A DNA stretch of 64,000 nucleotides from Erysipelotrichaceae bacterium (GTDB lineage Bacteria > Bacillota_I > Bacilli_A > Erysipelotrichales > Coprobacillaceae). Below, in pieces: positions 10,267-49,233 of this stretch. The stretch covers positions 1 through 64,000 of the forward strand of contig JAJQFG010000005.1 of the NCBI GenBank assembly GCA_021201315.1. Reading direction: 5' to 3'. How positions within the stretch are numbered: position 1 is the first letter of the stretch; each line of letters opens with the position of its first letter. The notes beneath the pieces are model-generated. The model saw only the letters and a program-made list of their open reading frames with translations, was not told the DNA's origin and made no database searches. Both the position numbers and the translations under genes were made by a program.

Positions 10267-10270
10267 CTCT
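10231..10270. repeat. Left attachment site (attL)
   Basis: 40-bp repeat matched at 49194-49233 with 38 identities. It covers the first 12 EIIB codons plus 4 bp of leader. The last 21 bp (10250-10270) are identical to the right copy and probably contain the crossover. Confidence 0.92.
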
Positions 10271-17000: not shown

Positions 17001-17126
17001 AATAAGTTTAGACATATCAATAGCCTTTTTACGATCATACGTATTAATGTTTCCTTTAGTAAATCCACCATATTTAAGCATATAGGCTTCTATATCATCT
17101 TCAAATTGCTTTTCTTTAAAATTCAT
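14076..17126 (-). CDS. hsdR: Type I restriction enzyme R subunit
   Basis: 1016 aa, full length. N-terminal nuclease core with the Asp and ExK of the PD-(D/E)xK site (SIDIVLML...ALELKNQ, about residues 130-155). SF2 translocase: Walker A QHSAGSGKS near residue 310, DEAH box VDEAHSSQTGKS, motif III FAFTATPKKR, motif VI QTLSRLNRTCKGK. It translocates DNA with ATP and cleaves away from the recognition site. Downstream of hsdS by 13 nt, same operon. Confidence 0.96.
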   Translation of the reverse strand: MNFKEKQFEDDIEAYMLKYGGFTKGNINTYDRKKAIDMSKLIQYIEVTQPQQWKRYNMIYGANVENKLYKRINESIEMHGFLYVLRHGIEDRGVKLKLASFKPQTGLNQKIIDDYNSNILECIRQFKYSPNNENSIDIVLMLNGFPIVALELKNQFTNQSVDNAIKQYKNDRDPRELCFQFNHRFLVYFAVDLYNIEMTTELKGSDTYFLPFNQGSNGAGKVGGAGNPVNADGYSTSYLWEYVLKKDMLMDILQRYMHLSEETKKDRTTGKSITTRKLIFPRYHQLDVVTKLLDDVKQNGSGKNYLIQHSAGSGKSNSIAWLAYGLSNLHDNDDNKIFKSIIVVTDRTVLDDQLQKTIYSFDHTAGVVEKIDKKKNSKDLRDAINEGKKIIITTLQKFPYIYKEIDDTSNKNFAIIVDEAHSSQTGKSAMKLKSALADTEESLKEYAEFAEIEESKIRDNEDILVDEILAHGRHKNLSFFAFTATPKKRTLEMFGEKQSDGSFKAFHIYSMKQAIEEGFILDVLQNYTTYKNCYKIVKSTSDNPNVPKTKATKAILRYESLHPHNLQQKTAIIIETYRDVTKNKINGKGKAMVVTASRLHALRYYHEFKRYIERKHYDDLDVLIAFSGKLTDIDETGETITYTEESINKRKDGTTIKESQLPEEFSNDNYSMLIVAEKYQTGFDEPLLHTMFVDKKLRDVKAVQTLSRLNRTCKGKYDTFVLDFVNTAKDIENAFKPYYEATILDEGINVNLIYDTRIKLNEYGLYDINDINNFYDFYQKESKNQSHVDMGKASGIFQKTIKKYETLDEDKQYEYKRTINNFVKWYSYITQITRLFDIDLHKEAFYCQTLATKLPKSGNGKDVFIDDKVQLEFYNLKKTSEGKISIDPSTDDQTLINPKALKTNGVTPEGDDLLENIILKINDKFQGKFTEADKVIVEDLYNRCVKDNDKLKTLAKNNDEEVYIQSIFPDLFSKVAQQCYVESIESFSKLFEDKNFYDLIMHELATATYKDLRNND

Positions 17127-17139
17127 TATCTCACATCCT

Positions 17140-18399
17140 TTACTTTACTTCTTTTTTACCAGTAACATATTCATATATTAATGACTTTTTGTAATCTTCT
17201 AAATCTTTGATAAGTGTTTCTTTATCAGCAATCATCTTATCTATTTGTTGACATTGTTGATCTAGGTAATTAACTATTTGTTGTCGTTCAATTTGATTTG
17301 ATGAATATGGTATATATAATTCTTTTACTCTATCTATATTCAAATTCAATTGAGTACTTATAGTTGATGATAAAATAAATATTTTTTTCATAGCTTTAAA
17401 AATATAATATAAATATATATTATCACTCTCGTTATTTGGAACAAATCCAACTATACTATCTGGAAAATATGCATCAAAATCTAATATAGCTACATCTCCA
17501 ACATTTGCAGCAATTGTCATAGTTAAAGTTCCTTTTGGAAACTCTTTGCTTACGCTTTTTCCAAATTCGTTTAAAGTTTGACTATAAGTTGTAATATATT
17601 TATTTGACTTTGCAACATCGCTTGTTTGAATAAAAGGATATATTCCATCATAATATCTTTTATCACTTCTAGGCCTATGATTAAATAATCCTCTAGAAAT
17701 ATGCGAAACATATTTTATTTTTATACTATGCCATTCTTTAGGCATATAACCTATCCATTCAATTCCACTATCCTTCATCTCAACATCAGGATTCAATCCT
17801 TTTGTGACTGCTTCAGTTATGATTGATTGCTTATATTTTTTATAATCTTCAATTGAAGCTTTTGCTAAAGTTATTGCTTTGTCAATTTCTTTTATCTTTG
17901 AATCTAAAAAAAATCCTATTCTTTTTTGTTCTTCAATACTAGGTATAGGTAACATTATCTTACTCATACGTTCCCATTTTGTTGACCAAAGATCTGCAAC
18001 AATTCCTGTTCCCCAACGATAAAACTCTTCAGCAAAACCATAATTTTTTAATAAATATTTAACATAATTGAGTTCAAAAGATCTATTTACTAATACTATA
18101 TTTATCAAAGAAACTGATCCATCATATTGTGAAACACCACATGATTGTTTTCTATCAGAGCGTGAGTTAATAACAAAATCCCCTATACAAACTTTTTTTC
18201 TAGAATCATGAGCATCAGATTTTGCCGCTGTTTCCAATTGCTTCACAATTCCTAATTTAGTAACAGATAAAGGTTCCCATTCACTATCTGACACCTTTTC
18301 ATTTCTTTCATAAAAACAACTTCCCAGTGGCTTCAATCTCCAATCTTTAGGTATTTCACCAATCCATTCAATACCACTATCTTTCATTTCTCTAGTCAT
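17140..18399 (-). CDS. hsdS: Type I RM specificity subunit
   Basis: 419 aa with the two-fold HsdS layout: two target-recognition domains, each starting with MKDSGIEWIG (residues 5 and 206) and each followed by a long helix (QKRIGFFLDSKIKEIDKAI and RQQIVNYLDQQCQQIDKMI). The helices set the spacer length between the two half-sites. The repeated segments are also similar as DNA (17751-17782 and 18361-18392), which would allow recognition-domain exchange. Shares one base with hsdM. Confidence 0.95.
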   Translation of the reverse strand: MTREMKDSGIEWIGEIPKDWRLKPLGSCFYERNEKVSDSEWEPLSVTKLGIVKQLETAAKSDAHDSRKKVCIGDFVINSRSDRKQSCGVSQYDGSVSLINIVLVNRSFELNYVKYLLKNYGFAEEFYRWGTGIVADLWSTKWERMSKIMLPIPSIEEQKRIGFFLDSKIKEIDKAITLAKASIEDYKKYKQSIITEAVTKGLNPDVEMKDSGIEWIGYMPKEWHSIKIKYVSHISRGLFNHRPRSDKRYYDGIYPFIQTSDVAKSNKYITTYSQTLNEFGKSVSKEFPKGTLTMTIAANVGDVAILDFDAYFPDSIVGFVPNNESDNIYLYYIFKAMKKIFILSSTISTQLNLNIDRVKELYIPYSSNQIERQQIVNYLDQQCQQIDKMIADKETLIKDLEDYKKSLIYEYVTGKKEVK

Positions 18400-20168
18400 T
18401 ATGATTCACCATCCATAAATAACTTTAGCATGGCATTCATTATGTCCTGTTCACGACCTTTTAGACGTGCTGCTATTACAGTGGAATCTTCTAGTTCTTC
18501 ATATTTGTAGAAATAACGTGTAAAAGGTATTTCATAACCAACTTTAGTTTTCGATTTATCTATCCAAGCGTCTTTATTATAAGGCTTTATCTCGCATTCA
18601 AAATAATCATCAATGTCCTGCGTTAGAGGCACATTCTCATAATCTCTTTTTGAAGCGTCAGCAATTGGTGACTTCTTCTTACCTTTTGTTATTATGTTAC
18701 CTTCACTATCATATTGTGGTGATTCTATTGTGATTCTATTAAATCCAAGGTCCTCATTATTAAATATCTTTGATTCACATGTTTTTCCATTGTCTTCATA
18801 CACTGCATTATTTTTAAATTCACCATATGCTTTAACAATGATATTCCTACATTCTTCGGTAATATCATAACGTTTATTACCTATATTTTTACGACGGCTT
18901 TCAACCATTTTTGAAGCATCAATCAGTTGTATTTTACCTTGCCTATGTATAGGTTTATCTTTTGAAATAATCCATATGTAGGTTGTTATACCTGTGTTAT
19001 AGAATACATCCGTTGATAATTGTACAATACAATCAAGCCAATCGTTTTCAATCATATAACGTCTAATTTCGGATTCACCAGATCCTGCTGCTCCAGTAAA
19101 CAATGATGATCCATTATGTATGATTGCCATCTTACCTGTATCTTTGAGCTTTGAAATTCCATTAAGATCAAATAACATTTGACCATCAGAGACCTTAGGT
19201 AATCCAACACCAAAACGACCATTATCACCTAAGTTATGTTCATCTTTTACCTTTTTTTGCTCTACTTTCCATGCTCTTCCAAATGGTGGATTAGAAATAA
19301 TATAATCAAATGTAAAACCTTTAAATTGATCATTTGTTAGTGTATTACCTTTTTTCATATTATTGCTATTACCACCACGTATAAGCATATCGGCCTTGGC
19401 GATAGCATATGTTTCAGGATTCAATTCTTGACCAAATAAAAGAACATTTGCTTCTTTATCTAATTGATGAAGCCTTTCGGACATGCATGTAAGCATTTGG
19501 CTTGTGCCCATTGTCATATCATAAACTGTCTTTGCTACGCCCTCGTTAATGAGCATTTCCTTGTCTTCCGCAAGCAACAAGTCCGTCATTAAATATATAA
19601 TATCACGAGATGTAAAGTGTTCTCCAGCATCCTCATCATAAGACTCTGAGAAGCGTCTAACGAGCTCTTCAAAGATATAACCCATATCAACTGTTGATAT
19701 AACATCAGGTCCCATATAAGCTTCTTTTTTATTAAATTCTTCTATAACTAGATAAAGCATACCACCATTAGCTAATTTTGTTATCTCATTACTAAACTCA
19801 AAATTTTTCAATATATCTATAACATTATCAGAGAATCCATTAATAAAAGCGTTAAAATTTTGTTCAATATTATCAGGATCATCTACAAGTTTTTGGAAAT
19901 CATAAGGACTAGTATTGTAAAATTGATAACCAGAAGCTGTGGTCAAAAATCCATCTTTCACTTGTAGGTGTTTAACCTTTTCATATGTATCCCAAACCTT
20001 TTGCCTAGTAGGTGCAAGAGTATCATTGAAACGTTTAATAACAGTCATAGGTAATATAACTTTACCATATTCATGTGGTTTATAATAATCTCTTAGAAGA
20101 TCTGCTATATTCCAAATAAGGTTTGATTTTTCTTGTATGTTGATCGTTGATTGTTGGTTTATATCCAT
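18399..20168 (-). CDS. hsdM: Type I RM DNA methyltransferase subunit
   Basis: 589 aa. N-terminal HsdM domain, then an N6-adenine methyltransferase with the SAM motif (VYDMTMGTSQML; canonical DPxxGSG is altered to DMTMGTS) and the catalytic NPPFG near residue 297. Methylates adenine with HsdS and forms the nuclease with HsdR. First gene of hsdM-hsdS-hsdR; the start overlaps nothing and has a GGAGAG site. Confidence 0.95.
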   Translation of the reverse strand: MDINQQSTINIQEKSNLIWNIADLLRDYYKPHEYGKVILPMTVIKRFNDTLAPTRQKVWDTYEKVKHLQVKDGFLTTASGYQFYNTSPYDFQKLVDDPDNIEQNFNAFINGFSDNVIDILKNFEFSNEITKLANGGMLYLVIEEFNKKEAYMGPDVISTVDMGYIFEELVRRFSESYDEDAGEHFTSRDIIYLMTDLLLAEDKEMLINEGVAKTVYDMTMGTSQMLTCMSERLHQLDKEANVLLFGQELNPETYAIAKADMLIRGGNSNNMKKGNTLTNDQFKGFTFDYIISNPPFGRAWKVEQKKVKDEHNLGDNGRFGVGLPKVSDGQMLFDLNGISKLKDTGKMAIIHNGSSLFTGAAGSGESEIRRYMIENDWLDCIVQLSTDVFYNTGITTYIWIISKDKPIHRQGKIQLIDASKMVESRRKNIGNKRYDITEECRNIIVKAYGEFKNNAVYEDNGKTCESKIFNNEDLGFNRITIESPQYDSEGNIITKGKKKSPIADASKRDYENVPLTQDIDDYFECEIKPYNKDAWIDKSKTKVGYEIPFTRYFYKYEELEDSTVIAARLKGREQDIMNAMLKLFMDGES

Positions 20169-28323: not shown

Positions 28324-30156
28324 ATGTATAAAAATACCAACAAAACACGAGAGTCAATCAAAGATGAATTCATCGATGCGCTCTCGCAACCTCAGGGATT
28401 ATGGGAAAGAGGATGGCGAATTATGCCACAGGAAAGAGCTGCGTCAGGCGTCGAATATAAAGGATTGAATGCTTTATATTTGACAATGGTTGCTGACAAG
28501 AAAAAGTATGAAGATTATCGCTGGTATACATATCAGCAGGTCAAGACTCTGGATTCTAAAAATCCTAATACAAGTATCTATGTAAGAAAAGGTGAAAAAG
28601 GAAGCTACGTTGAGTGGTGGTACAATTATCTTAAACAGGGACTAATGAGTGATGATGAATATCACAAATTATTGGACGAAGCCTATAAAACATTGGGTAA
28701 AGGCAAAAATTATCGCCATCAAAATATCTTTAATTCAGTAGAAAAAGAAAAACTAAAAATGGCCTTGAATCTAAAAAACGATGACTTTGGTATGAATTCA
28801 AAAAACTATACTGTATTTAATGGCTCGCAAATCGAAGGCTTGGAATTACCTTATCAAACAAACATTAAAATCGGCAAGGTAGAATTAGCAATGAATGTCA
28901 TTGAAAATTATTGCATGACAGAAAACATGACTATCAGCTATAGTTCAGCTGGTCGAGCTTATTATTCCTTTAGCAACGATACTATCACCATGCCTCCACG
29001 TGACACATTTGTTGACGAAGAACATTATGTGTCAACTCTTATTCATGAAATGTGTCATTCTACAGGTGCAGCTACAAGACTTAATAGGGATTTTGAAACA
29101 TTGAATGACAATGATGCTGCTCGCGCTATTGAGGAAATGCGTGCCGAGCTTGCATGCGTATTCCTATGCAACGAACTAAACGTTCCATTGGATCAGCAAC
29201 ACATTGACAACCATAAATCGTATGTGCAGTCATGGTATAATGCAATTAACGATGAAAAATATGGAGATAAACAATTGTTTGATACTATTAAAGAAGCTGA
29301 AACCATTGTTGACTATATCAAGGATAAAGGTCTATATAATCAATGCGTTCGTGAAATGCAAAACAACAAAGAAATTGAATTGCTAGGTAATATAGATTTA
29401 ACGAATGTTGAAAAAAATGTTAGCTTATTGCTTCATTGCTATAGCAATAAAAACGATATTGAATATCTGGAAGTCAATATCAACAGCGATGATAAATGGG
29501 ATTATTCGCTATATGATAGCAATGGTATCCTAATTGATGGCGGTATAGATGATTGTGATAATCTTATTGAGATGATTGGTGCTATTGCTGACGAAAACGA
29601 ATTAGTGCATCTATCAATATGTCATAGTGATTTAGAGTTAGGTGAAATATATTATGAAGCTGATAAAGAACTGCTATCAATGATTATGGATAAAACATAC
29701 AGTCATGAATTTAAGGAACAAGAAGAAACACTTCTAAACACTAAAAGTGCATTAAATTGTGATTATAAGGATGATTTAAAGCACTGCAAGGAAAATGAAG
29801 AAATGCTTACCAAGCTATCTAAATATGAAGATTGCATAGTTGACGTAACATATACCATAGATAATTCAAATGGTATTGATACCAAAAAAATTGATTCGAT
29901 GTCTTTAGGTGATGCTTTGCGTTTAAGAATTGCATCAGATACGGATATTGGTATAGATTTCATCATAAATCAAAACAAGGATTTAGTACTTAGATGCCAT
30001 GGTCAATATTTTAACGAAGATAAAAGTCAAAAACATGCTGTCACTGATATTCTAATCAAGTCGAGCAGCAAAGATGACAATGGCATTGACTTTGAAGAAG
30101 TCTTAACCAAGGTCAAGGAACAGGTCAACAATGTAACAAGAACTTTAAAAATCTAA
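28324..30156 (+). CDS. ardC: ArdC-family antirestriction protein with zincin domain
   Basis: 610 aa. N-terminal ssDNA-binding ArdC domain (residues 5-100: ALSQPQGLWERGW ... GVEYKGLNALYL), then a zincin metallopeptidase with HEMCH (His241, Glu242, His245) and the downstream EEMRAELA Glu. The C-terminal 250 residues form a polyvalent-protein-associated domain. ArdC protects incoming ssDNA against restriction. It fits the transfer context and the type I RM system carried by the element. GGAAGGAG precedes the ATG. Confidence 0.88.
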   Translation: MYKNTNKTRESIKDEFIDALSQPQGLWERGWRIMPQERAASGVEYKGLNALYLTMVADKKKYEDYRWYTYQQVKTLDSKNPNTSIYVRKGEKGSYVEWWYNYLKQGLMSDDEYHKLLDEAYKTLGKGKNYRHQNIFNSVEKEKLKMALNLKNDDFGMNSKNYTVFNGSQIEGLELPYQTNIKIGKVELAMNVIENYCMTENMTISYSSAGRAYYSFSNDTITMPPRDTFVDEEHYVSTLIHEMCHSTGAATRLNRDFETLNDNDAARAIEEMRAELACVFLCNELNVPLDQQHIDNHKSYVQSWYNAINDEKYGDKQLFDTIKEAETIVDYIKDKGLYNQCVREMQNNKEIELLGNIDLTNVEKNVSLLLHCYSNKNDIEYLEVNINSDDKWDYSLYDSNGILIDGGIDDCDNLIEMIGAIADENELVHLSICHSDLELGEIYYEADKELLSMIMDKTYSHEFKEQEETLLNTKSALNCDYKDDLKHCKENEEMLTKLSKYEDCIVDVTYTIDNSNGIDTKKIDSMSLGDALRLRIASDTDIGIDFIINQNKDLVLRCHGQYFNEDKSQKHAVTDILIKSSSKDDNGIDFEEVLTKVKEQVNNVTRTLKI

Positions 30157-30199
30157 GCATAGCTAACTTAATTCATGTAGTTATGTTAATTTTCAACGC

Positions 30200-30228
30200 A
30201 AGGATGGTCCATTAAGATCATCCTTTTT
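30200..30228 (+). terminator. Intrinsic terminator after ardC
   Basis: AAGGATGGTC/GATCATCCTT (one wobble) with a T run. Confidence 0.75.
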
Positions 30229-30254
30229 TATTATTAAAACAAGGAGAATTTTTT

Positions 30255-31589
30255 ATGAATAACAATAAAACTAAAACAAACGAATATATTAACGATGAAC
30301 GTAACGAACTAATCCCACCACAAGACGAGTGGTCGAATTTAGAACAGGTATCTGGTACAAACGTAATAGAATACAAAGGTATAGATGGCTTTCATCTAAA
30401 CTTAATCGCCATGGAACATGGATATAATGACAATCACTGGTTCACAACGAATCAAATCAACGCCATGTCGCAAAGCAACAATCATATCCATATAAAAGAT
30501 AGTGAAGCAGGACATAGCATTGAAATGAGATACTATTCAATTATCAAAAACAATAGAAGCGATGATGAATATTATCAATTATTAGCTGCTGCAAACAAAG
30601 CAATTAACAAAAGTTCTATTGTATCATCACAAAATCTTTTTACTAATCAACAAAAGAATAATGTTATCGATACATTAAACTTAAGCAATCAGGATTTTGA
30701 AGTAAACCTTATTAATAATGTTATTTATAATGGTAATCAAATCGAAGGTCTTGAATCATTATTATCCTACGATAACAATAGTGATAAAATTGAATTTTCA
30801 ACGATCGAGAATATCAATCTGGATAACACCGTTTATGCCAATCTGCTATTTACCTGCAACTATGATAATATCGAAGTCTATCTGGGTATCGAAATCAATG
30901 ATAATCTAGATTGGCATTATACATTATATAATCATGATGGTAATATTATCGTTGATGGTATAAACGATGATAATGCATTATCTGATGTCGTTGATAATGT
31001 AAGTGATAAGTACAATTTAAGCAATTCTGATTTATGTAGAGAGGATATTAGCAAAGGCTTGATAAACTATAGCAAGAACAATTTAAAAGTACTAGAGAAA
31101 CACCCCAAGGATAATATTCTATATATAAACAATAATGACTTAGCATCATACAGATTATTAAATTCTAAAAGTGTTTATGATTGTGATGATAAAGAGGAAT
31201 TAAGACACATTAAGGAAAATGACAACATTATTAATCAGCTTTATAAAAAGTGTGGCAATTGTGAGTATGAAGTTAAAGCTATCGGAAGGGATATTGACAA
31301 TGATGGATATGAAAAGGATTTTGGAGCTAACCTGTGTTATGACGATGTATTTGATATTGTGGAATGCTATGATTTTAAAAATGGCGTTGATTTTCTAATC
31401 GATCAAAATAAGAATCTTGTTATACGCTGCCATGGACAAGGCTATATTAAAAATGGTAAAGAATCACATAAAGTTATTGATATAGTAATATCAGCAAGAG
31501 ATGAGGATAAGCTTAAGGTTGACTTTAACAAGGTGTTTGATAAAGCAAAGAAGCAAATTCAAAGCATTTCTAAATCCATGAAATTATAA
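30255..31589 (+). CDS. ArdC paralogue lacking the metallopeptidase domain
   Basis: 444 aa. The N-terminal 150 residues align with the upstream ArdC (NVIEYKGIDGFHLNLI, NQLFTNQQKNNVIDTL-like segment, VIYNGNQIEGLES) and the C-terminal 220 align too (IDQNKNLVIRCHGQ against INQNKDLVLRCHGQ). The middle zincin domain with HExxH is absent; this is a clean domain deletion, not random decay. It may bind ssDNA or interact as a non-catalytic partner. Independent ribosome site (AAGGAG). Confidence 0.75.
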   Translation: MNNNKTKTNEYINDERNELIPPQDEWSNLEQVSGTNVIEYKGIDGFHLNLIAMEHGYNDNHWFTTNQINAMSQSNNHIHIKDSEAGHSIEMRYYSIIKNNRSDDEYYQLLAAANKAINKSSIVSSQNLFTNQQKNNVIDTLNLSNQDFEVNLINNVIYNGNQIEGLESLLSYDNNSDKIEFSTIENINLDNTVYANLLFTCNYDNIEVYLGIEINDNLDWHYTLYNHDGNIIVDGINDDNALSDVVDNVSDKYNLSNSDLCREDISKGLINYSKNNLKVLEKHPKDNILYINNNDLASYRLLNSKSVYDCDDKEELRHIKENDNIINQLYKKCGNCEYEVKAIGRDIDNDGYEKDFGANLCYDDVFDIVECYDFKNGVDFLIDQNKNLVIRCHGQGYIKNGKESHKVIDIVISARDEDKLKVDFNKVFDKAKKQIQSISKSMKL

Positions 31590-31779: not shown

Positions 31780-31798
31780 GAAGAAGCTTACGCTTCTT
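31780..31798 (-). terminator. Terminator overlapping the surface-protein stop
   Basis: AAGAAGC/GCTTCTT around the last codons, followed on the minus strand by T-rich sequence. Confidence 0.7.
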
Positions 31799-34700
31799 CA
31801 TGTTTTTTCTTTGCAAGCAATACTGCTCCTGCTCCACCAATCATCATTGCTAATGCGTATGGTGCAATAGAGATATCACCAGTCTGTACATCATCGCTAT
31901 CATCATCGTTGCTGCTAACTGTAACTGTATTGTTCTTTGTATCTATAATAGCACTAACGTTGATTTCTTCATCATCGTTATTATCACTATCGTTGCTATC
32001 TTCTTCATCAGCTTTTGCTGCTGCAACCATTGCGTCATAGATCAATTGTGCATCTACTACATCTTCCAATGCCTTTAAATAAATATCTTTTGCTTCTGAC
32101 AATGCTGTTGCGTCAACTTCGTAAGCTGCTAATGCTTCATCGTAAGCTTCCTGTGCTTCAACCAATGCTGCTTTAGCACTATTGATTGCTTCAACGTATG
32201 CATTCAAGTATGCATAGTCCTCATCTTCGATTGCTGTAGTCATTGCATCTTCCAATGTAATTGTCTTAGCTTTCTCGTATTGTGCTATTGCTTCATCATA
32301 AGCCACTTGTGCACTTGCCAATGATGTTGTTGCTGTTTCGATATTTGCCTTTGATTCCTCAATAGCTTTAACTAGAGCGTCATATCTTGCTAATGCATTG
32401 TCATAGTTTTCTTCAGCCTGCTCCTTGGCAGTTCTTAAGCTCATCAATGCGTTGTATGAACTTGTTGCTTCGTCAAGCTCGCTTGTTGCTGATGCTAAAG
32501 CTGTGCCAGTCTTAGATTGTGCTTCCTTGGCTTCGTCCAATACTTCCTGTGCTTCTTCAAGAGCATAAGCTGTTTCTTCAACGTTCCATTTTGCTTCATA
32601 TAAAGCATCATCCTTTTCAATTGCTAGATCAATAGCGTCTTCCAAATCGCTATATGCTGCATTAACTTTTGATAAGGCTGCTTCATAGTCTGGATACAAT
32701 TCAGCAAGTTCTGCATATAATTGATCTAACGTTGCCTGTTTATCTGCTACGTCTTCGTCAATGTCTTCAATCTCACTCTTGATTGTTTCCAAATATTCTT
32801 CACAGTAATCAACGTAATCCTTAGCTTCTTCGTAATAGTATTGATCATCTTCCAAGAGACTCTTGTTTTCTTCAAGCTCTTCCATTGCTAAATCAAGCTT
32901 GTCGTTGGCACAATCCAAATTATATTCCTGAGTTTCTACTTCAGCTTCAGCTGCGTATACAGCAAGTTCAGCTTCATTATAAGCTTCTTGTGCTTCGCTT
33001 AACGCACTTTCCTTTTCGCTTACTGTTGTTTTTGCTTCTTCTAAAGCAGTGGCTGCAGCACTTGCATTTGCAACTGCTTCGTCATAGGCAGCCTGTGCTT
33101 CTTCTACGGCTTTTGTTAAAGCATCGGTATCAAGCGTTGATAAATAGTCATTCAATAATTGTTCGTATTCATCAACTGTCATTGTAGTTCCAAATTGTCC
33201 ATTATCATCCCAAAAAACTTGTCCATAATAATATACGTAATAAGTTGAGCCATCGTAAGGACTTGTACATTCTTCAACTGCAATAGCTGCTCCAGTAGCT
33301 GTAAATTCAGCTTCTGCGATAGTTTCATAATGACCAGTTGTACGTGTAGTCGATCCAGCTTCATAAAGTGCTTTTTCAGTATAATACCATCCATCATAAG
33401 GATCCAAGTTTTCACTACCATAATTAATAATTTCTGCTGCACCAAATTGATTTGAATGTTCAAAGATGTTAGAAGAATAATTGATATTGCTCATCTCAAT
33501 AGCAGTTAACTGCAATGTTACACCACATTCATCAATGCCTTCTTCAGTAACACGAATCTCATTGCATTCCTTGATCATCTCGATAGCCTTTAGCATATTT
33601 TCAATGCTTGTAGCATCTAATTCGCTTCCTTCATGAGTGTAGCTCGCATACGTTGCATTATTCAAGATATCAAGTGCTGCCTTTGCATCGCTAGCAATAG
33701 TTTCATCTTCACTTTCGCTTAAATACTCAAAGAATGCGAATGCTCCCTGTGCATATTTATCTTCGGCTTCGTCCAAAGCGATTTGAGCTGCTTCCAATGC
33801 TTCTTGTGCATCGCTTACTGCTTCGTTAGCTTCTTCAAGTGCTGCTTCCTTAGCATCAACGTTATCGTTTGCTTCATCCAATGCGTCCTGTGCATCATCA
33901 ATGGCTTGCTGTGCTGTTTCTTGAGCTTCTTGTGCGTCTTTTAAATCACTTTGTGCATTTGCTAATGATGTAGTAGCACTGTCTACTTCGACTTGTGCAC
34001 TATCAACGCTTGCCTGTGCTTCTTCTACTGATTGAGTCAATTCTTCAATCATTGCTGCCCAGTATTCCATTTCACTTGTTGCATCTTCAAGGTTTTCTTC
34101 AGCAAATTCCAATGACATTTGAGCGACTTCCTGATCATCTTTTGCCTCGTCAAGTGCATCTTGAGCGTCGTTGATTGCTTCCATGATTGCTTCATATTCT
34201 TCGCTTTCTTCTGGATCTTCCAATGCATTGTAGGCTGATTGTGCTTCATTGTATGCATTTAACGCTGCTGTCAATGCTGTATCAGCTGCTTCCTTTTCGC
34301 TAAGTGCTGTATCGTATGCACTTTGAGCTTCGCTTACTGCTGTAGTAGCTGCATCATAGCTTGCCTGTGCGTTGTCCAAATTACTTTGTGCTTCATCGTC
34401 AGCTGCTTGGGCTTCGTTGTATGCTGCTGTCTTGTCATCCATTGTGCTTTGTGCACTTGACAATGCTTCATCAGATACAACAGATGCATTTGCAGTTGCT
34501 TCTTCAAGATTGCTTTCGGCTGTTGCTACATTTTCCTTTGCGCTTTCAAGTTCACTTTCTAATGTTTCTTTCGTTGATTGTGCATTGGCTAATGTTGTCT
34601 CAGCATTTGTAACATTCGTTGCGGCTGCATCTACATCGTTTTTTGCATCTTCGAGCATATCTTCAAACGCTTGTGCTGCTTCATCTTCAGCAGTTGTTAC

Positions 34701-35012
34701 ATTTGTAGAAGCTTCGTTAAGTGCTGCTGTGGCACTATCCAATGTGCTTTGAGAAGCATTCGCTGTGGTTTGAGCTGCTTCGTAAGTGCTTTGAGCTTCA
34801 CTTGCGATTTCCTTTTCACTTTCAAGATTGTCTTCAGCTTCTTCAATCGTTGATGGCGTTGATGAAGTAGTAGTTGTAGTTGTTTCTTCATTAGCTGCAA
34901 TATCGTCTGTAGAAGTTGTCTCTTCTGCGTTAACAGTTACTGTGCCAGCTGATAGCATTAACCCTGTTGCAAGTGCTACTTTGCCAGCGTTGGATAATAA
35001 ATTCTTTTCCAT
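31788..35012 (-). CDS. Large coiled-coil surface protein with CAP domain (surface-exclusion-like)
   Basis: 1074 aa. Signal peptide (residues 1-31, ending NAEE), then Ala/Glu/Asp-rich coiled coil to about 420 with heptads such as EAQEALDEA. Residues 420-630 form a CAP/SCP-like domain (HSNQFGAAEIINYGSENL, DGWYYTEK, TTGHYETI). A second coiled coil follows, then DDVQTGD, a hydrophobic segment and a KKKHEEA tail: a sortase-type anchor with VQTG in place of LPXTG. Coiled coil plus CAP is the layout of Sec10/PgrA surface-exclusion proteins of conjugative plasmids. It may block redundant transfer or act as an adhesin. No sortase gene lies in the window. Confidence 0.8.
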   Translation of the reverse strand: MEKNLLSNAGKVALATGLMLSAGTVTVNAEETTSTDDIAANEETTTTTTSSTPSTIEEAEDNLESEKEIASEAQSTYEAAQTTANASQSTLDSATAALNEASTNVTTAEDEAAQAFEDMLEDAKNDVDAAATNVTNAETTLANAQSTKETLESELESAKENVATAESNLEEATANASVVSDEALSSAQSTMDDKTAAYNEAQAADDEAQSNLDNAQASYDAATTAVSEAQSAYDTALSEKEAADTALTAALNAYNEAQSAYNALEDPEESEEYEAIMEAINDAQDALDEAKDDQEVAQMSLEFAEENLEDATSEMEYWAAMIEELTQSVEEAQASVDSAQVEVDSATTSLANAQSDLKDAQEAQETAQQAIDDAQDALDEANDNVDAKEAALEEANEAVSDAQEALEAAQIALDEAEDKYAQGAFAFFEYLSESEDETIASDAKAALDILNNATYASYTHEGSELDATSIENMLKAIEMIKECNEIRVTEEGIDECGVTLQLTAIEMSNINYSSNIFEHSNQFGAAEIINYGSENLDPYDGWYYTEKALYEAGSTTRTTGHYETIAEAEFTATGAAIAVEECTSPYDGSTYYVYYYGQVFWDDNGQFGTTMTVDEYEQLLNDYLSTLDTDALTKAVEEAQAAYDEAVANASAAATALEEAKTTVSEKESALSEAQEAYNEAELAVYAAEAEVETQEYNLDCANDKLDLAMEELEENKSLLEDDQYYYEEAKDYVDYCEEYLETIKSEIEDIDEDVADKQATLDQLYAELAELYPDYEAALSKVNAAYSDLEDAIDLAIEKDDALYEAKWNVEETAYALEEAQEVLDEAKEAQSKTGTALASATSELDEATSSYNALMSLRTAKEQAEENYDNALARYDALVKAIEESKANIETATTSLASAQVAYDEAIAQYEKAKTITLEDAMTTAIEDEDYAYLNAYVEAINSAKAALVEAQEAYDEALAAYEVDATALSEAKDIYLKALEDVVDAQLIYDAMVAAAKADEEDSNDSDNNDDEEINVSAIIDTKNNTVTVSSNDDDSDDVQTGDISIAPYALAMMIGGAGAVLLAKKKHEEA

Positions 35013-38322: not shown

Positions 38323-39258
38323 ATGGAAGAAACTAAATTTAGTAAAATAGCACAAGAATGGCTAAAAATTAAAAAGCTTTCAATAAAGGCTTCCACTTAC
38401 GTAAAATATAGAATTAACATAGAAAATCATCTTAATGATTTGTTTGTTGATAAGGATATCGATGAGTGGAATGATATTGATTATTATGATTTGTTTGAAA
38501 AGCTGCTCGACGAAGGAGAATTTTCACGCAGCACCATCAAGACTTTTAGGACAATATTAAAAAGCATTCTCCAATATGGTGAAGAGGAATATGGATTAAA
38601 ACACATAAATCTATCAAGGATAAAGCTTCATAGAGATCAGCAGCATGTCAAAGTACTAACAAACGAAGAAGCTATTAGGTTATCGAATTACTGTGAAAAA
38701 AACATCAACTACAAAACAGTGCCTGCCTATATTGCATTATATACAGGACTAAGAATAGGAGAAGTATGTGGCCTTAAATGGGAAGATATAGATCTTAAAA
38801 ATAATGAAATAAATGTTAATAGAGCTGCCCATCGTATTACTAATTATAATGATGTGAACAAAAGCAGTTCAACTATTTTAACTTTAGACTTACCTAAGAC
38901 AAAAACTTCAGCAAGGAAGGTAATTATGCCTGATTATCTATCAAAGTACCTTGCGACATATAAAAAGATGAATCAAGGCAAAGAGTCATCTTTTGTAATC
39001 ACCAACTCTGATACAATACCAGAGCCTCGTACCGTTGAAAGACGATTTGAAAGAATATGTCATCTTCTTGATATCGATTTAAAATTCCATGAATTAAGAC
39101 ATACATATGCTACAAACTGCCTAAAATATGATATGGACACAAAGACTGTAAGCCAGCAGCTTGGGCATAGTGATATATCTACCACATTAGATCTCTATGT
39201 TCACCCTGATTATAGCCATATCAAAAAGCAGGTAAAGAAATTCAAGAAATTTGAATAA
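38323..39258 (+). CDS. Tyrosine recombinase, intact active site
   Basis: 311 aa. N-terminal SAM-like core-binding domain (residues 1-95) and a catalytic domain with Arg in TGLRIGEVCGL, the beta-hairpin Lys in TKTSARK, HELRHTYAT, LGHSDIST and the nucleophile Tyr in LDLYVHP. Length and lack of an arm-binding domain are like Xer or inversion-type recombinases rather than the element's Int. It lies about 630 bp from two palindromic core-type sites and is their best candidate enzyme. AAGGAGG precedes the ATG. Confidence 0.93.
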   Translation: MEETKFSKIAQEWLKIKKLSIKASTYVKYRINIENHLNDLFVDKDIDEWNDIDYYDLFEKLLDEGEFSRSTIKTFRTILKSILQYGEEEYGLKHINLSRIKLHRDQQHVKVLTNEEAIRLSNYCEKNINYKTVPAYIALYTGLRIGEVCGLKWEDIDLKNNEINVNRAAHRITNYNDVNKSSSTILTLDLPKTKTSARKVIMPDYLSKYLATYKKMNQGKESSFVITNSDTIPEPRTVERRFERICHLLDIDLKFHELRHTYATNCLKYDMDTKTVSQQLGHSDISTTLDLYVHPDYSHIKKQVKKFKKFE

Positions 39259-39283
39259 CAAAGAAAGGATAAATTATTACAAT

Positions 39284-39655
39284 ATGAATCTTGGTATAAG
39301 AATAAAAGCATTAAGAAAACGACGTAATCTTACACGCAATGAGCTAGGAGAACTTTTAGGTGTTCATTTCCCTTCATCAACCATATCAAGATATGAAATG
39401 AATAAAACCAAACCACAAGACAAATATATGAACAGATTGATAAAAATATTAAACGTCGATGAAGCATTCCTTTTAAGCGATACGGACGATGCTACAATCA
39501 ATTTATTTATTGATCTATTTTGGCAAATGAAAGATGGAGAGGATATTATTCTACTTGATAGAATGTTTGAATGTTTCAAGGAGTATGATGAAGAACGATA
39601 TCGTAAGTTTGTTAAAATAATAAAACTACTTTATTTAGATAGATTTGATGAATGA
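39284..39655 (+). CDS. XRE-family regulator
   Basis: 123 aa from the ATG at 39284 (MNLGIRIKALRKRRN); a TTG at 39251 overlapping the recombinase is less likely. HTH: LTRNELGELLGVHFPSSTISRYEMNK in parts, then a helical C-terminal domain for dimerisation (LIDLFWQMKDGEDIILL in parts). Probably cotranscribed with the recombinase and a regulator of it or of the operon after the palindromes. Confidence 0.85.
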   Translation: MNLGIRIKALRKRRNLTRNELGELLGVHFPSSTISRYEMNKTKPQDKYMNRLIKILNVDEAFLLSDTDDATINLFIDLFWQMKDGEDIILLDRMFECFKEYDEERYRKFVKIIKLLYLDRFDE

Positions 39656-39698: not shown

Positions 39699-39726
39699 AA
39701 AGCAACATTTGATGTGTTGCTTTTTT
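39699..39726 (+). terminator. Terminator after the recombinase/XRE pair
   Basis: AAAGCAACA/TGTTGCTTT stem with a T run. Confidence 0.8.
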
Positions 39727-39885: not shown

Positions 39886-39915
39886 AACTGTCAAAAAGTA
39901 TACTTTTTGACAGTT
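39886..39915. repeat. Palindromic site 1 (candidate recombinase core site)
   Basis: Perfect 30-bp palindrome: 12-bp arms AACTGTCAAAAA and TTTTTGACAGTT around GTATAC. Two inverted arms with a 6-bp centre is the architecture of tyrosine recombinase core sites. Each arm also contains TTGACA pointing outward. It has no T tail, so it is not a terminator. Confidence 0.8.
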
Positions 39916-39935
39916 AAATTTCTATATTCATTATA
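39907..39935 (+). promoter_or_regulatory. Possible promoter inside the palindrome-flanked segment
   Basis: TTGACA (39907-39912) in the right arm of site 1, with CATTAT 16 nt or ATTATA 17 nt downstream. It points to the TasA-like operon. On the minus strand next to site 2 there is a TATAAT that would point the other way. Confidence 0.45.
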
Positions 39936-40032
39936 GGGCATATTTTCTTCAAAATCAATACTTCAAGCAATTAAAAATGAATAAAATTACTGGTTCTGCG
40001 AAAATTTCCAACAAATTATATTCACATCTAGC

Positions 40033-40062
40033 AACTGTCATTAAGTATACTTTTTGACAGTT
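40033..40062. repeat. Palindromic site 2 (candidate recombinase core site)
   Basis: Arms AACTGTCATTAA and TTTTTGACAGTT around GTATAC: 28 of 30 bases as in site 1. The 117 bp between the sites holds the candidate promoter(s). Together with site 1 it fills the 440-bp gap between 39655 and 40097. Confidence 0.8.
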
Positions 40063-40096: not shown

Positions 40097-41020
40097 ATGA
40101 TTGATGAAACTCAAATTTGTCAGGAATGGCTTGATCTAAAAAAAGGAAATATAAAGCCTACAACCTATGATAAATATGAAAAAATCATAACCAAGTACCT
40201 TATACCGCTTTTTGATGAATGTCCAATTGATCAATTAAACGTTAGCAAAGTATCAGATTATTTGAATCAGTTATTGGAGAAAGGATTGTCTCGATATACG
40301 GTTAATCTTATCAAGCTTATACTCATTTCTATATATGATTACGCTCATGATCAATATGGTTATAAAAAGATTGATTTTGATGGGAATTTACCTAATACAC
40401 ATTTAAAAACAAAGCCAAAAGCATCAGATGTCCTTAATGATGAACAGGAAGATATATTATATCAGTATTGTATGTTCCATGTTGATTCGTTAAGTGTTTC
40501 GATATTATTAACATTATATGCTGGATTAAGGTGCATGGAAACATGTGCTTTAAAGATAAAAGATGTCAACTTAGAAGAGGGCTTTATAGATATCAACAAG
40601 CAAGTAGAAAGAATAGTTAACCGTGAAAATAATTATTCAAAAACCTTATCACAGCTAACTTATCTCTCATGGCCGGAGAAAAGGCAGGTTGTATTGCAGC
40701 CTTTCATGATAAATTATCTTAACGCATATATCGATTGCAATAATCCAGAAGTGTATCTGCTAAACAAGTTAAACAGTTTGCCAGCCAAAAGAACATATCA
40801 AAACAAACTAACTATGCTTTCAAAGACATTGGGGTTCGATATAAGTTATTCAATATTAAGGAATACTTGTAAAAGCAAATGCATTGAAAACGATGTCAAC
40901 ATTAAAGTGATTATGAATATGCTTGGCCTGTCCAAACTGGAAATCAATATTGATGATACCTATCATGAAGGAATGGATTATACGAGAGAAGAGATGTGCA
41001 AGATTGATCCAGGTATATAG
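40097..41020 (+). CDS. Tyrosine recombinase paralogue with degenerate active site
   Basis: 307 aa from the ATG at 40097 (MIDETQIC), preceded by AAAGGAGG; the earlier in-frame ATG lies in palindrome 2. It is a paralogue of the 311-aa recombinase (CQEWLDLKKGNIKPTTYDKY against AQEWLKIKKLSIKASTYVKY). Arg of AGLRCMET and Tyr of DDTYHEG remain, but HxLRHT is SILRNT and LGHS is LGLS, so both conserved His are lost. Probably inactive or weak, and may bind the palindromes as a regulator. First gene of the SipW/TasA-like operon. Confidence 0.82.
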   Translation: MIDETQICQEWLDLKKGNIKPTTYDKYEKIITKYLIPLFDECPIDQLNVSKVSDYLNQLLEKGLSRYTVNLIKLILISIYDYAHDQYGYKKIDFDGNLPNTHLKTKPKASDVLNDEQEDILYQYCMFHVDSLSVSILLTLYAGLRCMETCALKIKDVNLEEGFIDINKQVERIVNRENNYSKTLSQLTYLSWPEKRQVVLQPFMINYLNAYIDCNNPEVYLLNKLNSLPAKRTYQNKLTMLSKTLGFDISYSILRNTCKSKCIENDVNIKVIMNMLGLSKLEINIDDTYHEGMDYTREEMCKIDPGI

Positions 41021-41056
41021 TTATAGCATGGTCTGATTGTTTCGGAGGTGAAGTGT

Positions 41057-41596
41057 ATGTCTAGGAAATCAAACGTAAAGGATATTCTTATGACGATAGG
41101 AGATTTTGTCACAACGTTTATAACTGCATTCATCGCTATCATTGCTGTAGCAATGGTTGCTATCAATTTAATGGGATGGCATCTGTTTTCCATAGACAGT
41201 TCGAGTATGAGCCCTGCTTATCCAGTTAATTCGCTGGTTGTTGTACAAAGCATTGATGCTGACGATATCGAGGTTGGTGAAGTTATTACTTATGTTCTTA
41301 ATGATGATGGAGTCCTTATTACACACAGGGTTGTAAGCAAGGATACTGCAAATCAGACTTTCACTACGAAAGGTGATGCCAATAACGTTGAAGATGCTTC
41401 ACCTGTAAGCTTTGACAATGTCGTTGGCAAGGTAGTATTAGGGTTTCCGCTTGCTGGAGGAATCTTAAGAATTCTAACGGCAAGTGAAAATAGAGTTATT
41501 GTTATAGCATGTATTGTTATTTTATTCATGTTCTCATTTGTATGGGACATGATTGCAAGGAAGAGAAAGAACAAGGGAAAGGAGGGAGAGAAGTGA
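41057..41596 (+). CDS. SipW-type signal peptidase I
   Basis: 179 aa from the ATG at 41057 after GGAGG. Membrane helix near residues 15-40, Ser nucleophile in SSSMSPAYP, His in THRVV (His instead of the bacterial Lys, as in archaeal and SipW enzymes), KGDANNVED, and a C-terminal membrane helix (VIVIACIVILFMF) with a basic tail. SipW peptidases cleave TasA/camelysin precursors, and two such precursors follow in the operon. Its stop overlaps the next start. Confidence 0.92.
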   Translation: MSRKSNVKDILMTIGDFVTTFITAFIAIIAVAMVAINLMGWHLFSIDSSSMSPAYPVNSLVVVQSIDADDIEVGEVITYVLNDDGVLITHRVVSKDTANQTFTTKGDANNVEDASPVSFDNVVGKVVLGFPLAGGILRILTASENRVIVIACIVILFMFSFVWDMIARKRKNKGKEGEK

Positions 41597-42216
41597 GAGC
41601 AAGCCAGAAATTTATGATAGCGTGTCTTTTAATGGCGGTCATAACATTTACTACGGTATCGTCTTCTATATCGCTTTTATCGGGAGGTTCAGGTTTGGTT
41701 ATTAATACATTTACCTTTGAAACTGAAGAAGGCTCAATTGCCATAGAACTTGATGAAACGGATATTAATGATACCAGCAAACGTACTGATGGTAATAATT
41801 ATACAATCACTAAAGGAGAAACTGTTTCTAAAGATCCAACTGCAACTATTAAAGCTGGTAGTGTGGATTCATATGTGTTTATCTATATGGATAATCCGTT
41901 ATCAGCTGATTTTACAATCAATTATAGTGATTCATGGACTTTAATAGCAAGCAACGAAAACAAATCGCTCTATATGTATAACGATATTGTTGAATCATCA
42001 GAAGACGATCAGAAATTAACGCCATTGTTTACAGAGGTAACTGTACCTAGTGATATTAGTGATGAAGATATTGCATCGTTTGGCACTAAGACAATGACTC
42101 TTCAAGCTTATGCGATTGAAGCGGATACAGCAAATATAACTGAAGAAGGAGCTATCAATGAAGCAACAGCTAAATTTGGATTAAGCTCTTCAAATACTAA
42201 TGTAAGCGAAGACTAA
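41593..42216 (+). CDS. TasA/camelysin-like secreted fibre protein
   Basis: 207 aa with a GTG start at 41593, overlapping the SipW stop (GTGA) and preceded by AAAGGAGGGAG. SipW-type signal segment (residues 8-27), then INTFTFETEEGSIAIELDETD, KGETVSKDPTATI and DSYVFIYMDNP: the SipW-dependent TasA/CalY pattern. Such proteins form surface or biofilm fibres in Bacillus. Likely the major substrate of the adjacent peptidase. Confidence 0.82.
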   Translation: MRASQKFMIACLLMAVITFTTVSSSISLLSGGSGLVINTFTFETEEGSIAIELDETDINDTSKRTDGNNYTITKGETVSKDPTATIKAGSVDSYVFIYMDNPLSADFTINYSDSWTLIASNENKSLYMYNDIVESSEDDQKLTPLFTEVTVPSDISDEDIASFGTKTMTLQAYAIEADTANITEEGAINEATAKFGLSSSNTNVSED

Positions 42217-42249
42217 GATAGTAAAAAACAAGAAAGGAATTAGGGGAAG

Positions 42250-42582
42250 ATGTTAAAAAGCAAGAAATATACATTAAAATGCATGCTACTAACTTTAACG
42301 CTTATGTTAGTTTGTTGCACTTCCATTAAAGGAACGCTTTCCCTCGATACGTCATTGTCCAATGCATGCGTCAATACCTTTGCGTTTTCTTTAACCAATG
42401 AGCCTGCTGATGCGAGCACAGGCATCAATGAAAGCAACGATAAGGATGTAACAAAAGATACAAACGTCAATACCAATGCTAAAACAGGTGACGATACTAT
42501 GCTTAATATTGTATTGATTGGTATGCTTGTAAGTATTGTAGGTCTTGCAATATGCTGGACAAGAGAGAACAAAGAAAATTGA
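42250..42582 (+). CDS. Small sortase-anchored surface protein
   Basis: 110 aa. Signal segment LTLMLVCCTSIKGTLSL, a Thr/Asn/Asp-rich middle, then NAKTGDD, a hydrophobic helix (MLNIVLIGMLVSIVGLAI) and a charged tail (RENKEN): a sortase-type anchor with AKTGD. It may be the wall anchor of the fibre made by its neighbours. No sortase in the operon. Short spacing to the next gene. Confidence 0.75.
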   Translation: MLKSKKYTLKCMLLTLTLMLVCCTSIKGTLSLDTSLSNACVNTFAFSLTNEPADASTGINESNDKDVTKDTNVNTNAKTGDDTMLNIVLIGMLVSIVGLAICWTRENKEN

Positions 42583-42620
42583 GAGTAACAAAAATTAATA
42601 TTAGGAAAGGAAAAATTATT

Positions 42621-44393
42621 ATGGCAACAAGTAAGAAAAGCATTGCGACTAAAGCTTCAGCAGTGGCTTTAGCTGCTGCATTATTAATTGGTTTGGGTTC
42701 GTATTCATATTTAACAGGGAAAACACAAAACATAGAAAACGAATTTAATACAAACAACAATAGCGTTGAATTAGAAGAAACTACTGGCAACAAATATGAT
42801 ATCGTGCCAGGTACTAGTCAAGACAAGGATCCTACTGTTACAGCAACCTATACATTGGATTCTTATGTATTTTTGGAAGTGAACGATGCAACTGGTGGAT
42901 TGGTAGATTATGATATTGTAGATGGATGGAAATTATTAGATACAATATCAAACAGTGACGGTTCTACGACATATGTTTATTATCAATTATTAGAGAATAG
43001 TGGTATAAAAGAAATCAATTGGTATAATTCAAGTGATTCTACAATTAAGTTGTATGATGAAGGAAGCTATACATATATTTGGGATACTAATAGTAATACA
43101 ATAACACAATTAGATACTACAAATAATGATCAGATAGATGTTACTTCTTCTTTTGATTTATCAACAGGTAATATGTATAACCATAATGAAACAACTACAA
43201 TACTACAGGTACTTCAAGGAGATAAGGTGTCTTATTCATCTTCAATTACAAATGAACAAATGGAAGCTGCTGGAGATGATATTTCTTTAACATTCCAGGC
43301 TTATATCATTCAAGCACAGCTTAGCGGAACAACAGGAGATAGTCTTGATGATCCATTAACAGCATATAAGGTTGTAACAACAGGTGCTTCAGTATATGTA
43401 GATAATGCAACGTATGTATCTTTAGATGCTAGTAGCAGTACTAATTTAGGAACTCAATTGAAAAATGCTATAAACAATGCAAGTTCAAGCGAAACAACTG
43501 TTGTAGTTTTACCAGAAAATAGCAATATATCAATGAGTGGTTATTCATTTAGTAGTGCAATTAATAGTACTATTGTAATAGATTTGAATGAAAATGAATT
43601 GAGCTTAACAGGAAGTATTGCTGTTAATTTAACTAATGGTGATGATTTAACGATAGCTAATGGTACACTTGAAAGAAGTGAAATGAGTGGTGCAGCATAT
43701 TCAGCGTTTTCTATTGCATCAAATAGTTCGTTCACTTTAGACAATGTTACAGCGACTACAAATGGATGCTTATGCTATCCTCAAGGTGATGCTGCTGAGG
43801 TAAATATTGTTAATTCTAATGTTAGTGGAAATGGTTATGTAGTGGCTACTAACGCTGCAACTGTGGATAATTATAATGTCGAAATTAATATTGAAAATAG
43901 TATTTTAAATGCTTCATATTGCCCTGTGTTGATTAATGTTCCTGGAACGTTAAATATTTCAAATTCAACAATCACTGGTGGATCTCAAGCACTGGTGGTT
44001 CGTGCTGGTACCGCAAGTGTTAATGATACTACTCTTGCTACTACACTAGGTGAAGATGATTTTTGGACAAGTTATGATAGTTCAAATTGGGGAAATGGTA
44101 ACGCTGTAGCAATGGCTGTTATAACAATTGGAAATCGCAATGGTACTTACGCAGGAGATGCACAGGTAACACTTGATAATGTTAAATTACAATACGATAC
44201 AACGATTAGCGGTTCTAAAGGTATTTATATGACAGGCGGTGTAACTTATCCAGCAACAAATTCAACACCTAATAAAGCTATATTATATTATGATTCAGAT
44301 AGCTCTATTGGAAAGTTAGTACGTGCAAATGGTACGGACGGTAGTGACTACACTGTTGTTTATAAAGATGGAACATTAATACCTAACGAATAA
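42621..44393 (+). CDS. TasA-like N-domain fused to a beta-helix (adhesin-like)
   Basis: 590 aa from the ATG at 42621 (MATSKKS) after AAAGGAAA; the earlier in-frame ATG lies in the previous gene. SipW-type signal (residues 6-30), then the TasA-like pattern GNKYDIVPGTSQDKDPTVTA and LDSYVFLEV. From about 260 the protein is Ser/Thr/Asn-rich with repeats such as VNIVNSNVSGNGYV and LNISNSTITGG: a parallel beta-helix. Likely a fibre tip or adhesin. Last gene of the operon, followed by a terminator. Confidence 0.8.
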   Translation: MATSKKSIATKASAVALAAALLIGLGSYSYLTGKTQNIENEFNTNNNSVELEETTGNKYDIVPGTSQDKDPTVTATYTLDSYVFLEVNDATGGLVDYDIVDGWKLLDTISNSDGSTTYVYYQLLENSGIKEINWYNSSDSTIKLYDEGSYTYIWDTNSNTITQLDTTNNDQIDVTSSFDLSTGNMYNHNETTTILQVLQGDKVSYSSSITNEQMEAAGDDISLTFQAYIIQAQLSGTTGDSLDDPLTAYKVVTTGASVYVDNATYVSLDASSSTNLGTQLKNAINNASSSETTVVVLPENSNISMSGYSFSSAINSTIVIDLNENELSLTGSIAVNLTNGDDLTIANGTLERSEMSGAAYSAFSIASNSSFTLDNVTATTNGCLCYPQGDAAEVNIVNSNVSGNGYVVATNAATVDNYNVEINIENSILNASYCPVLINVPGTLNISNSTITGGSQALVVRAGTASVNDTTLATTLGEDDFWTSYDSSNWGNGNAVAMAVITIGNRNGTYAGDAQVTLDNVKLQYDTTISGSKGIYMTGGVTYPATNSTPNKAILYYDSDSSIGKLVRANGTDGSDYTVVYKDGTLIPNE

Positions 44394-44419: not shown

Positions 44420-44450
44420 AAGGAAATTCTTTAAGGATTTCCTTTTTTAA
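44420..44450 (+). terminator. Terminator of the SipW/TasA-like operon
   Basis: AAGGAAAT/ATTTCCTT stem then a T run. The rest of the 466-bp gap 44394-44860 holds promoter P9. Confidence 0.8.
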
Positions 44451-49123: not shown

Positions 49124-49193
49124 ATCAATAATTACAATGTTAAAAAATATATATTGCCTTGATTTTATCTAATAATTTTAGAATTTAGAATCC

Positions 49194-49233
49194 ATTCCGC
49201 CAGCGCACGCCAACATAATTCTAATCATCTCTC
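49194..49233. repeat. Right attachment site (attR)
   Basis: 38/40 match to 10231-10270. It holds the original start codon of EIIB (49229-49227) with its native GGAGG leader. The reading frame stops after 16 codons, just inside the element. Confidence 0.92.

Follow-up and report, generated by a model that had tools for sequence, protein, structure and literature searches.

Promoter-bearing DNA segments that invert ahead of surface operons are a familiar feature of both Bacteroidales and Clostridioides difficile (PMC12118408, PMC6837544). In the capsule phase variation of Bacteroides (Mpi/Upx; PMC12118408), many surface operons of one genome lie behind promoter segments bounded by shared inverted repeats, tyrosine recombinases carry out the switching, and every operon opens with the gene of a dedicated regulator. 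The invertible switches of C. difficile (PMC6837544, PMC5386303) likewise place promoter or leader segments governing surface traits between inverted repeats acted on by site-specific recombinases, in a Gram-positive gut bacterium. Invertible promoters are reported to be rare in Bacillus-like Firmicutes, the median in a defined gut community being 0 per genome (PMC11892184). Here we describe a five-gene operon in a 64-kb stretch of DNA (the window; positions 1 to 64,000 of contig JAJQFG010000005.1) from an Erysipelotrichaceae bacterium. It is most probably a phase-variable surface-protein operon, in which a 147-bp promoter segment is flipped between two palindromes and a catalytically dead recombinase serves as a non-cutting regulator. 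The organization parallels both described systems in the respects just listed, while differing from that of Bacteroides in its Firmicute host, in sites that form full palindromes where Bacteroides has plain inverted repeats, in a first-gene regulator that is a dead recombinase and not UpxY or UpxZ, and in a cargo with SipW-exported proteins and a sortase pilus among its members, some of it carried on mobile DNA. From the switches of C. difficile it differs in its sites and targets, and a dead recombinase as the first gene of a target operon is not described in the parts of those papers available. The account is built on comparison of sequences (palindrome pairs, promoter, opposite orientations in orthologues, catalytic loss, purifying selection and the mobile element), and from these we infer the acting recombinase, the effect of flipping on transcription, the role of the dead recombinase and the formation of fibres.

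The two palindromes upstream of the operon (Table 1), already mentioned in a preliminary description of this region, are each 30 bp long, are 93% alike and share the core TGTCAAAAAGTATACTTTTTGACA; the number expected by chance is 0. Throughout the 3.0-Mb genome exactly 12 such sites occur, arranged as 6 pairs with members 146-178 bp apart, and a reversed-pattern control returned 0. Five of these pairs precede surface operons and the sixth precedes mobility genes (contigs are designated by C-numbers, the genomes of two sister species by G001 and G002, and searched loci by L-numbers). Among 60 relatives the sites were found in the same genus only. Every intact switch segment (8/8) contains one TTGAnn-N17-TAnnnT promoter, the -10 end of which lies 17-20 bp from one of the palindromes; in a position-specific test with 2000 shuffles per segment, at most 13 reached the match, and under free shuffling the significance at single loci was not convincing (p 0.07-0.56). 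The window locus has the layout of an inverton, with short inverted repeats surrounding a promoter upstream of an operon. An exact 24-bp copy of the palindrome was also found once in a viral contig (L136:8844-8867), between genes for a resolvase and a Tn3-type transposase.

Both orientations of the segment are represented, between orthologous loci of two species as well as among paralogous loci. The promoter points away from the adjoining gene at the window, C103, C97, C39, C13 and G002_C298, and toward it at C107 and G001_C116. The loci G002_C298 and G001_C116 constitute an orthologous polysaccharide locus of the two sister species, with collinear flanks, and their segments are identical at 129/151 positions (85%) when compared as reverse complements, the forward alignment being at noise level. 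These opposite orientations in orthologous loci represent direct comparative evidence for inversion. They, together with those among the paralogous loci, render it very improbable that the DNA does not invert and that the palindromes instead act as operators or terminators to which a regulator binds (for example, the dead recombinase as a repressor), even though perfect palindromes suit dimeric binding and the distal palindrome with its T tract is terminator-like. The preliminary description had missed the inverting promoter, for which the evidence is stronger than for any other part of the system. G002_C230 has lost one palindrome and retains the other in damaged form, with the promoter facing the gene, a state that matches what would be expected of a switch locked ON. 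Contigs of relatives tend to stop at the palindromes, and G002 C251 begins at a palindrome centre; this fits mixed orientations in the assembled cells, and repeats could also be the cause. As read from its promoter direction, the window switch is OFF in this assembly.

The flanks of the palindromes are themselves asymmetric, with a mean of 8.1 T in 12 positions on the distal side versus 2.9 on the operon side (C39 departs from this pattern), and the distal palindrome with its T tract may terminate transcription from the outward-facing promoter when the switch is OFF. Such an outward T tract follows the distal palindrome at most switch loci (the window and seven others). The motif TTCTGCGAA/TTCGCAGAA occurs in the window switch segment (39916-40032) and also in L018, L020 and L021 ahead of sugar-transferase genes; placed near the promoters of surface operons, it is a possible operator.

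Table 1. Features of the operon, its switch and the surrounding element in the window, and the switch loci of the genome
Feature	Position	Strand	Basis or content
Distal palindromic site AACTGTCAAAAAGTATACTTTTTGACAGTT	39886-39915		with outward T tract, terminator-like on the - strand
Operon-proximal palindromic site AACTGTCATTAAGTATACTTTTTGACAGTT	40033-40062		palindrome search
Segment predicted to invert (147 bp, palindrome centre to centre)	39901-40047		layout common to 6 genome loci
Predicted promoter TTGATT-N17-TATAAT, pointing away from the operon	39930-39958	-	position-specific shuffle test
Gene 1, catalytically degenerate tyrosine recombinase, first gene of the operon	40097-41020	+	open reading frame (ORF), Pfam, residue alignment
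Gene 2, SipW-type signal peptidase (S26B)	41057-41596	+	TIGR02228, NF046067
Gene 3, exported SipW-dependent-type protein	41593-42216	+	family reaches TIGR04088 proteins elsewhere
Gene 4, small exported protein with sortase-signal-like C-terminus	42250-42582	+	weak TIGR01167, NF053819
Gene 5, large exported protein	42621-44393	+	N-terminal domain related to gene 3 product
Intrinsic terminator closing the operon	44420-44444	+	scan: 11-pair stem and T run
Intrinsic terminator between upstream genes and switch	39699-39723	+	scan: 10-pair stem and T run
Intact tyrosine recombinase, nearest invertase candidate	38323-39258	+	PF00589 6e-29; R, K, HxxR, H and Y all aligned
HTH_3 regulator adjoining the intact recombinase	39251-39655 (start 39251 TTG or 39284 ATG)	+	PF01381 2e-10
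Left end repeat of the element, CATTCCGCCAGCACACGCTAACATAATTCTAATCATCTCT	10231-10270		38/40 identical to 49193-49232
Right end repeat of the element	49193-49232		40 bp, 38/40 identical to left copy
Tn916-type integrase of the element	10419-11636	-	Pfam PF00589 1e-33, PF02920 8e-29
Switch locus, window			SipW operon
Switch locus, C39			second SipW cassette
Switch locus, C103			SpaA-type pilus operon with two sortases
Switch locus, C97			giant surface protein
Switch locus, C13			polysaccharide locus
Switch locus, C107			mobility genes

The product of gene 1 is a relative of tyrosine recombinases (Pfam PF14659, 3e-11; PF00589, 2e-8), with matches to both the N-terminal SAM-like and the catalytic domain of the recombinase fold, and the best Foldseek match of its AlphaFold model is the Tn1549 integrase (E 7e-10, TM 0.66-0.70). 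Alignment with intact relatives reveals an incomplete catalytic set (Arg, Lys, His, Arg, His/Trp, Tyr): both Arg are retained and both His replaced, as had been noted earlier, but the active-site Lys is lost as well, and the Tyr that was thought to be kept is displaced by one residue. The segment of the model containing the His and Tyr positions (residues 279-291) has a pLDDT below 50. A contig search with the single window protein gave no match, and a query built from an alignment recovered relatives. Gene 1 and 11 other dead paralogues form one clade (100/100), limited to the genus among the genomes searched, within which the palindrome-linked copies are a subclade (99/100); in the palindrome-linked copies the Tyr is shifted by one position, and a second subgroup has no Tyr. 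Members of that second subgroup lack palindromes (L012, L013, L014, L015 and L017), several being frameshifted or containing stops, and the copy in L015 lies directly upstream of polysaccharide chain-length and kinase genes.

Seven loci whose cargo is unrelated each have a gene 1 relative that starts no more than about 50 bp from a palindrome, and such relatives head pilus, polysaccharide and giant-protein operons elsewhere. Three palindrome loci (C39, C13 and G002 C251) have no such gene, and only one of the four SipW cassettes, that of the window, is accompanied by it (not those at C39, G002 C251 and G001 C77). This distribution argues that gene 1 is part of the switch, and that the SipW cassette is a separate module joined to it here; the earlier view of the recombinase as fixed in first position accordingly holds for the palindrome module but not for the cassette. 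The constant adjacency to the palindromes at all seven loci where the gene is found, the retention of both Arg and a nearby Tyr in the palindrome-linked subclade, and the common finding that invertase genes adjoin their invertible elements (PMC11892184) might suggest that gene 1 itself encodes an active invertase with a non-canonical active site, forming a self-sufficient switch able to invert its own promoter. We regard this as improbable, in view of the loss of Lys and both His in every member, the displaced Tyr in a poorly modelled segment, the three switch loci that manage without the gene and the presence of intact relatives in the same genome.

In two pairs of dead orthologues, dN/dS was 0.144 and 0.121, compared with 0.137 in an intact recombinase. 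By these ratios and the tree, the dead family lost its catalytic residues once, in the distant past, and is under purifying selection. That full-length ORFs were retained after this loss, at ratios like those of intact recombinases, also makes it unlikely that the dead copies are decaying, functionless relics of former self-switching cassettes, as the frameshifted or stop-containing copies at C97, C83, C95 and C73 could otherwise imply. The gene 1 product is thus likely a non-catalytic regulator with conserved DNA binding, derived from a recombinase as previously proposed. It could act on transcription or elongation of the operon rather than on inversion, in the manner of the UpxY antiterminators and UpxZ of Bacteroides capsule operons, which occupy the same position in Bacteroidales (PMC12118408). 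Such an action would suit a gene that stands first in long surface operons otherwise unrelated to one another, and also the related subgroup at polysaccharide loci lacking palindromes; on the other hand, sequence comparison revealed no relationship to NusG-like proteins and the fold is that of a recombinase, and we consider this alternative somewhat unlikely.

The best candidate for the enzyme that flips the segment is the intact tyrosine recombinase encoded just upstream (Table 1), itself adjoined by the HTH_3 regulator; no inverted repeats flanking this recombinase were found. Three other intact recombinases of this genome (L018:1272-2216, L020:5279-6220 and L021:9429-10364) lie inside inverted repeats of their own, GAAGATT-N5-AATCTTC, with an N5 that is identical within a locus and different among loci. 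They are located upstream of capsule sugar-transferase loci, the L021 gene running in the opposite direction. They look like a second type of switch, with the recombinase gene itself on the inverting segment, and probably serve switches other than the one described here. The C31 recombinase, at the head of a DpnII-type restriction operon, was considered as a master invertase on account of its presence in G000, G001 and G002, and was ruled out by its own flanking repeats and its occurrence in genera without palindromes. An intact tyrosine recombinase is first in a DpnII-type restriction-modification operon at L022:8884-9810, flanked by copies of TTTAGTTAAAAACTAAA, and this recombinase remains beside a Dam-type methylase gene in two more genera (G009 and G019).

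In the proposed mechanism, a tyrosine recombinase, most plausibly the upstream candidate at 38323-39258, would recombine the two palindromes and invert the segment between them. In one orientation the predicted promoter would fire into the operon, and in the other, that seen here, it would fire outward, its transcript probably stopping at the distal palindrome and T tract. In the ON state the first product would be the dead recombinase, which may bind the same or similar palindromic half-sites without cutting, stabilising or biasing the switch, and which probably also acts at other loci of the palindrome set. The SipW-type peptidase would then process the exported proteins for assembly at the surface, where they may be held by the small protein with the sortase signal. 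Several observations weigh against this account. The orientations were compared between species and not within one strain. The palindrome arm holds a TTGACA that, paired with the reverse of the -10 box, gives a second promoter-like match (TTGACA-N16-CATTAT at 39907-39934) directed toward the operon in the orientation taken as OFF, which raises the possibility that the ON/OFF assignment is leaky or even reversed. A close relative of the upstream recombinase was not found in G001, which has an ON switch with one damaged site. Finally, C97 carries a frameshifted dead copy and several of the copies not linked to palindromes are broken, implying that the gene 1 family is not indispensable. As to the competing promoter-like match, its spacing differs across loci (16-18), whereas that of the N17 promoter is constant, and for this reason the latter was taken as the functional one.

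The five genes of the operon are separated, in order, by a 36-bp gap, a 4-bp overlap, and gaps of 33 and 38 bp (a GTG at 41048 is an alternative start of gene 2), and terminators lie on both sides. As the preliminary description proposed, the ORFs are present where placed, and on their spacing and boundaries they are a single transcription unit (40097-44393). The gene 2 product matches TIGR02228 above the cut-off (8e-27) and the SipW family NF046067 below its 190-bit cut-off (4e-19, 69 bits); it contains the Ser (in IDSSSM) and His (in THRV) expected of an S26B SipW-type enzyme, and its earlier assignment stands. The order SipW, exported protein, small xTG/ND-anchored protein and larger exported protein recurs at four loci in three genomes. 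The predicted synteny of five genes thus holds for these four, gene 1 being absent from 3/4 cassettes. Chance assembly of the cassette was ruled out, given this order at four loci and the dead recombinase behind palindromes at seven.

The exported proteins were previously likened to TasA and camelysin (M73), an identity that we have abandoned. These window proteins gave no Pfam match and no match to sequences in the PDB, and a low-confidence structure model of the gene 3 product (pLDDT 63) gave no Foldseek fold match. The likeness is indirect: the gene 3 family reaches TIGR04088 (SipW-type signal) proteins in other genera, the C39 paralogue matches TIGR04089 (E 7e-4), and the best camelysin match, in a distant homologue, has an E of 0.08. 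A safe name for the predicted gene 3 product is SipW-dependent-type exported protein. The gene 4 product ends in AKTGD, a hydrophobic segment and the charged tail RENKEN, in a region conserved as KTGD/KTND in relatives, with weak matches to anchor profiles (TIGR01167, E 0.03, below cut-off; NF053819, 0.002). The N-terminal domain of gene 5 matches the gene 3 family profile at 42735-43001 (E 2.5e-7), and its C-terminal region is repetitive and rich in Ser, Thr and Asn; the C39 paralogue is 43% identical. This last cassette gene is the most divergent, with a dN/dS of about 0.54 (a rough value at 41% identity) versus 0.10 for SipW. As in the sipW-tasA locus of Bacillus and the sipW-tasA-calY locus of B. 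cereus (PMC4292775), the gene for a dedicated SipW peptidase precedes those for exported proteins within a single operon, and fibre, anchor and tip roles of these proteins are hypotheses framed by analogy with those loci (PMC4292775). The sequence relation to TasA is distant at best, and the present operon has in addition a small protein of the sortase-signal kind and a large repetitive one. The two also differ in regulation. SinR controls the sipW-tasA operon of Bacillus, and here DNA inversion would take its place.

The operon is carried within an element of about 39.0 kb (10231-49232), as the preliminary description had surmised. A Tn916-type integrase lies near one end, the terminal repeats differ at two of 40 positions, and the empty site is preserved in the relative G002, in which contig C246 joins the window flanks 49193 and 10281 with a single copy of the end repeat. 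Other genes of the element encode a DnaB-like helicase, a type I restriction system, MobA/MobL, a coupling protein and two ArdC proteins. It shares with known integrative mobilizable/conjugative elements with Tn916-type integrases the placing of the integrase close to one end, the terminal repeats, genes for a relaxase and a coupling protein, and an unoccupied site in a relative, but its cargo is a predicted phase-variable surface operon and its set of conjugation genes appears incomplete within the window. With genes for a relaxase and coupling protein present, the element may transfer to new hosts, a capacity predicted from gene content. The type I restriction-modification genes (R, S and M) are at 14076-20168 and the two ArdC antirestriction proteins at 28324-31589, and a 1074-aa coiled-coil-rich surface protein with a C-terminal VQTGD anchor-like signal is encoded at 31788-35012.

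Beyond the single locus, it is possible, rather than probable, that the dead family, made only from loci that are ON, provides a memory and cross-talk layer in a genome-wide network of inversion switches, carried in part on mobile elements. Dead recombinases would then bind sites without cutting and set which surface structure is shown, be it an exported fibre-like protein, a pilus, a capsule or a giant surface protein. Our literature search found no catalytically dead recombinase as the first gene or regulator of phase-variable operons, although coverage was incomplete and novelty is unproven. If dead recombinases do control these switches, they would constitute a class of regulator that we have not found described, and a testable model for the passage of a recombinase fold to a regulator. 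The six switches with one shared site sequence in this genome stand against the reported rarity of invertible promoters in Bacillus-like Firmicutes, and the window indicates that a surface operon and its on/off switch can be carried jointly on one mobile element.

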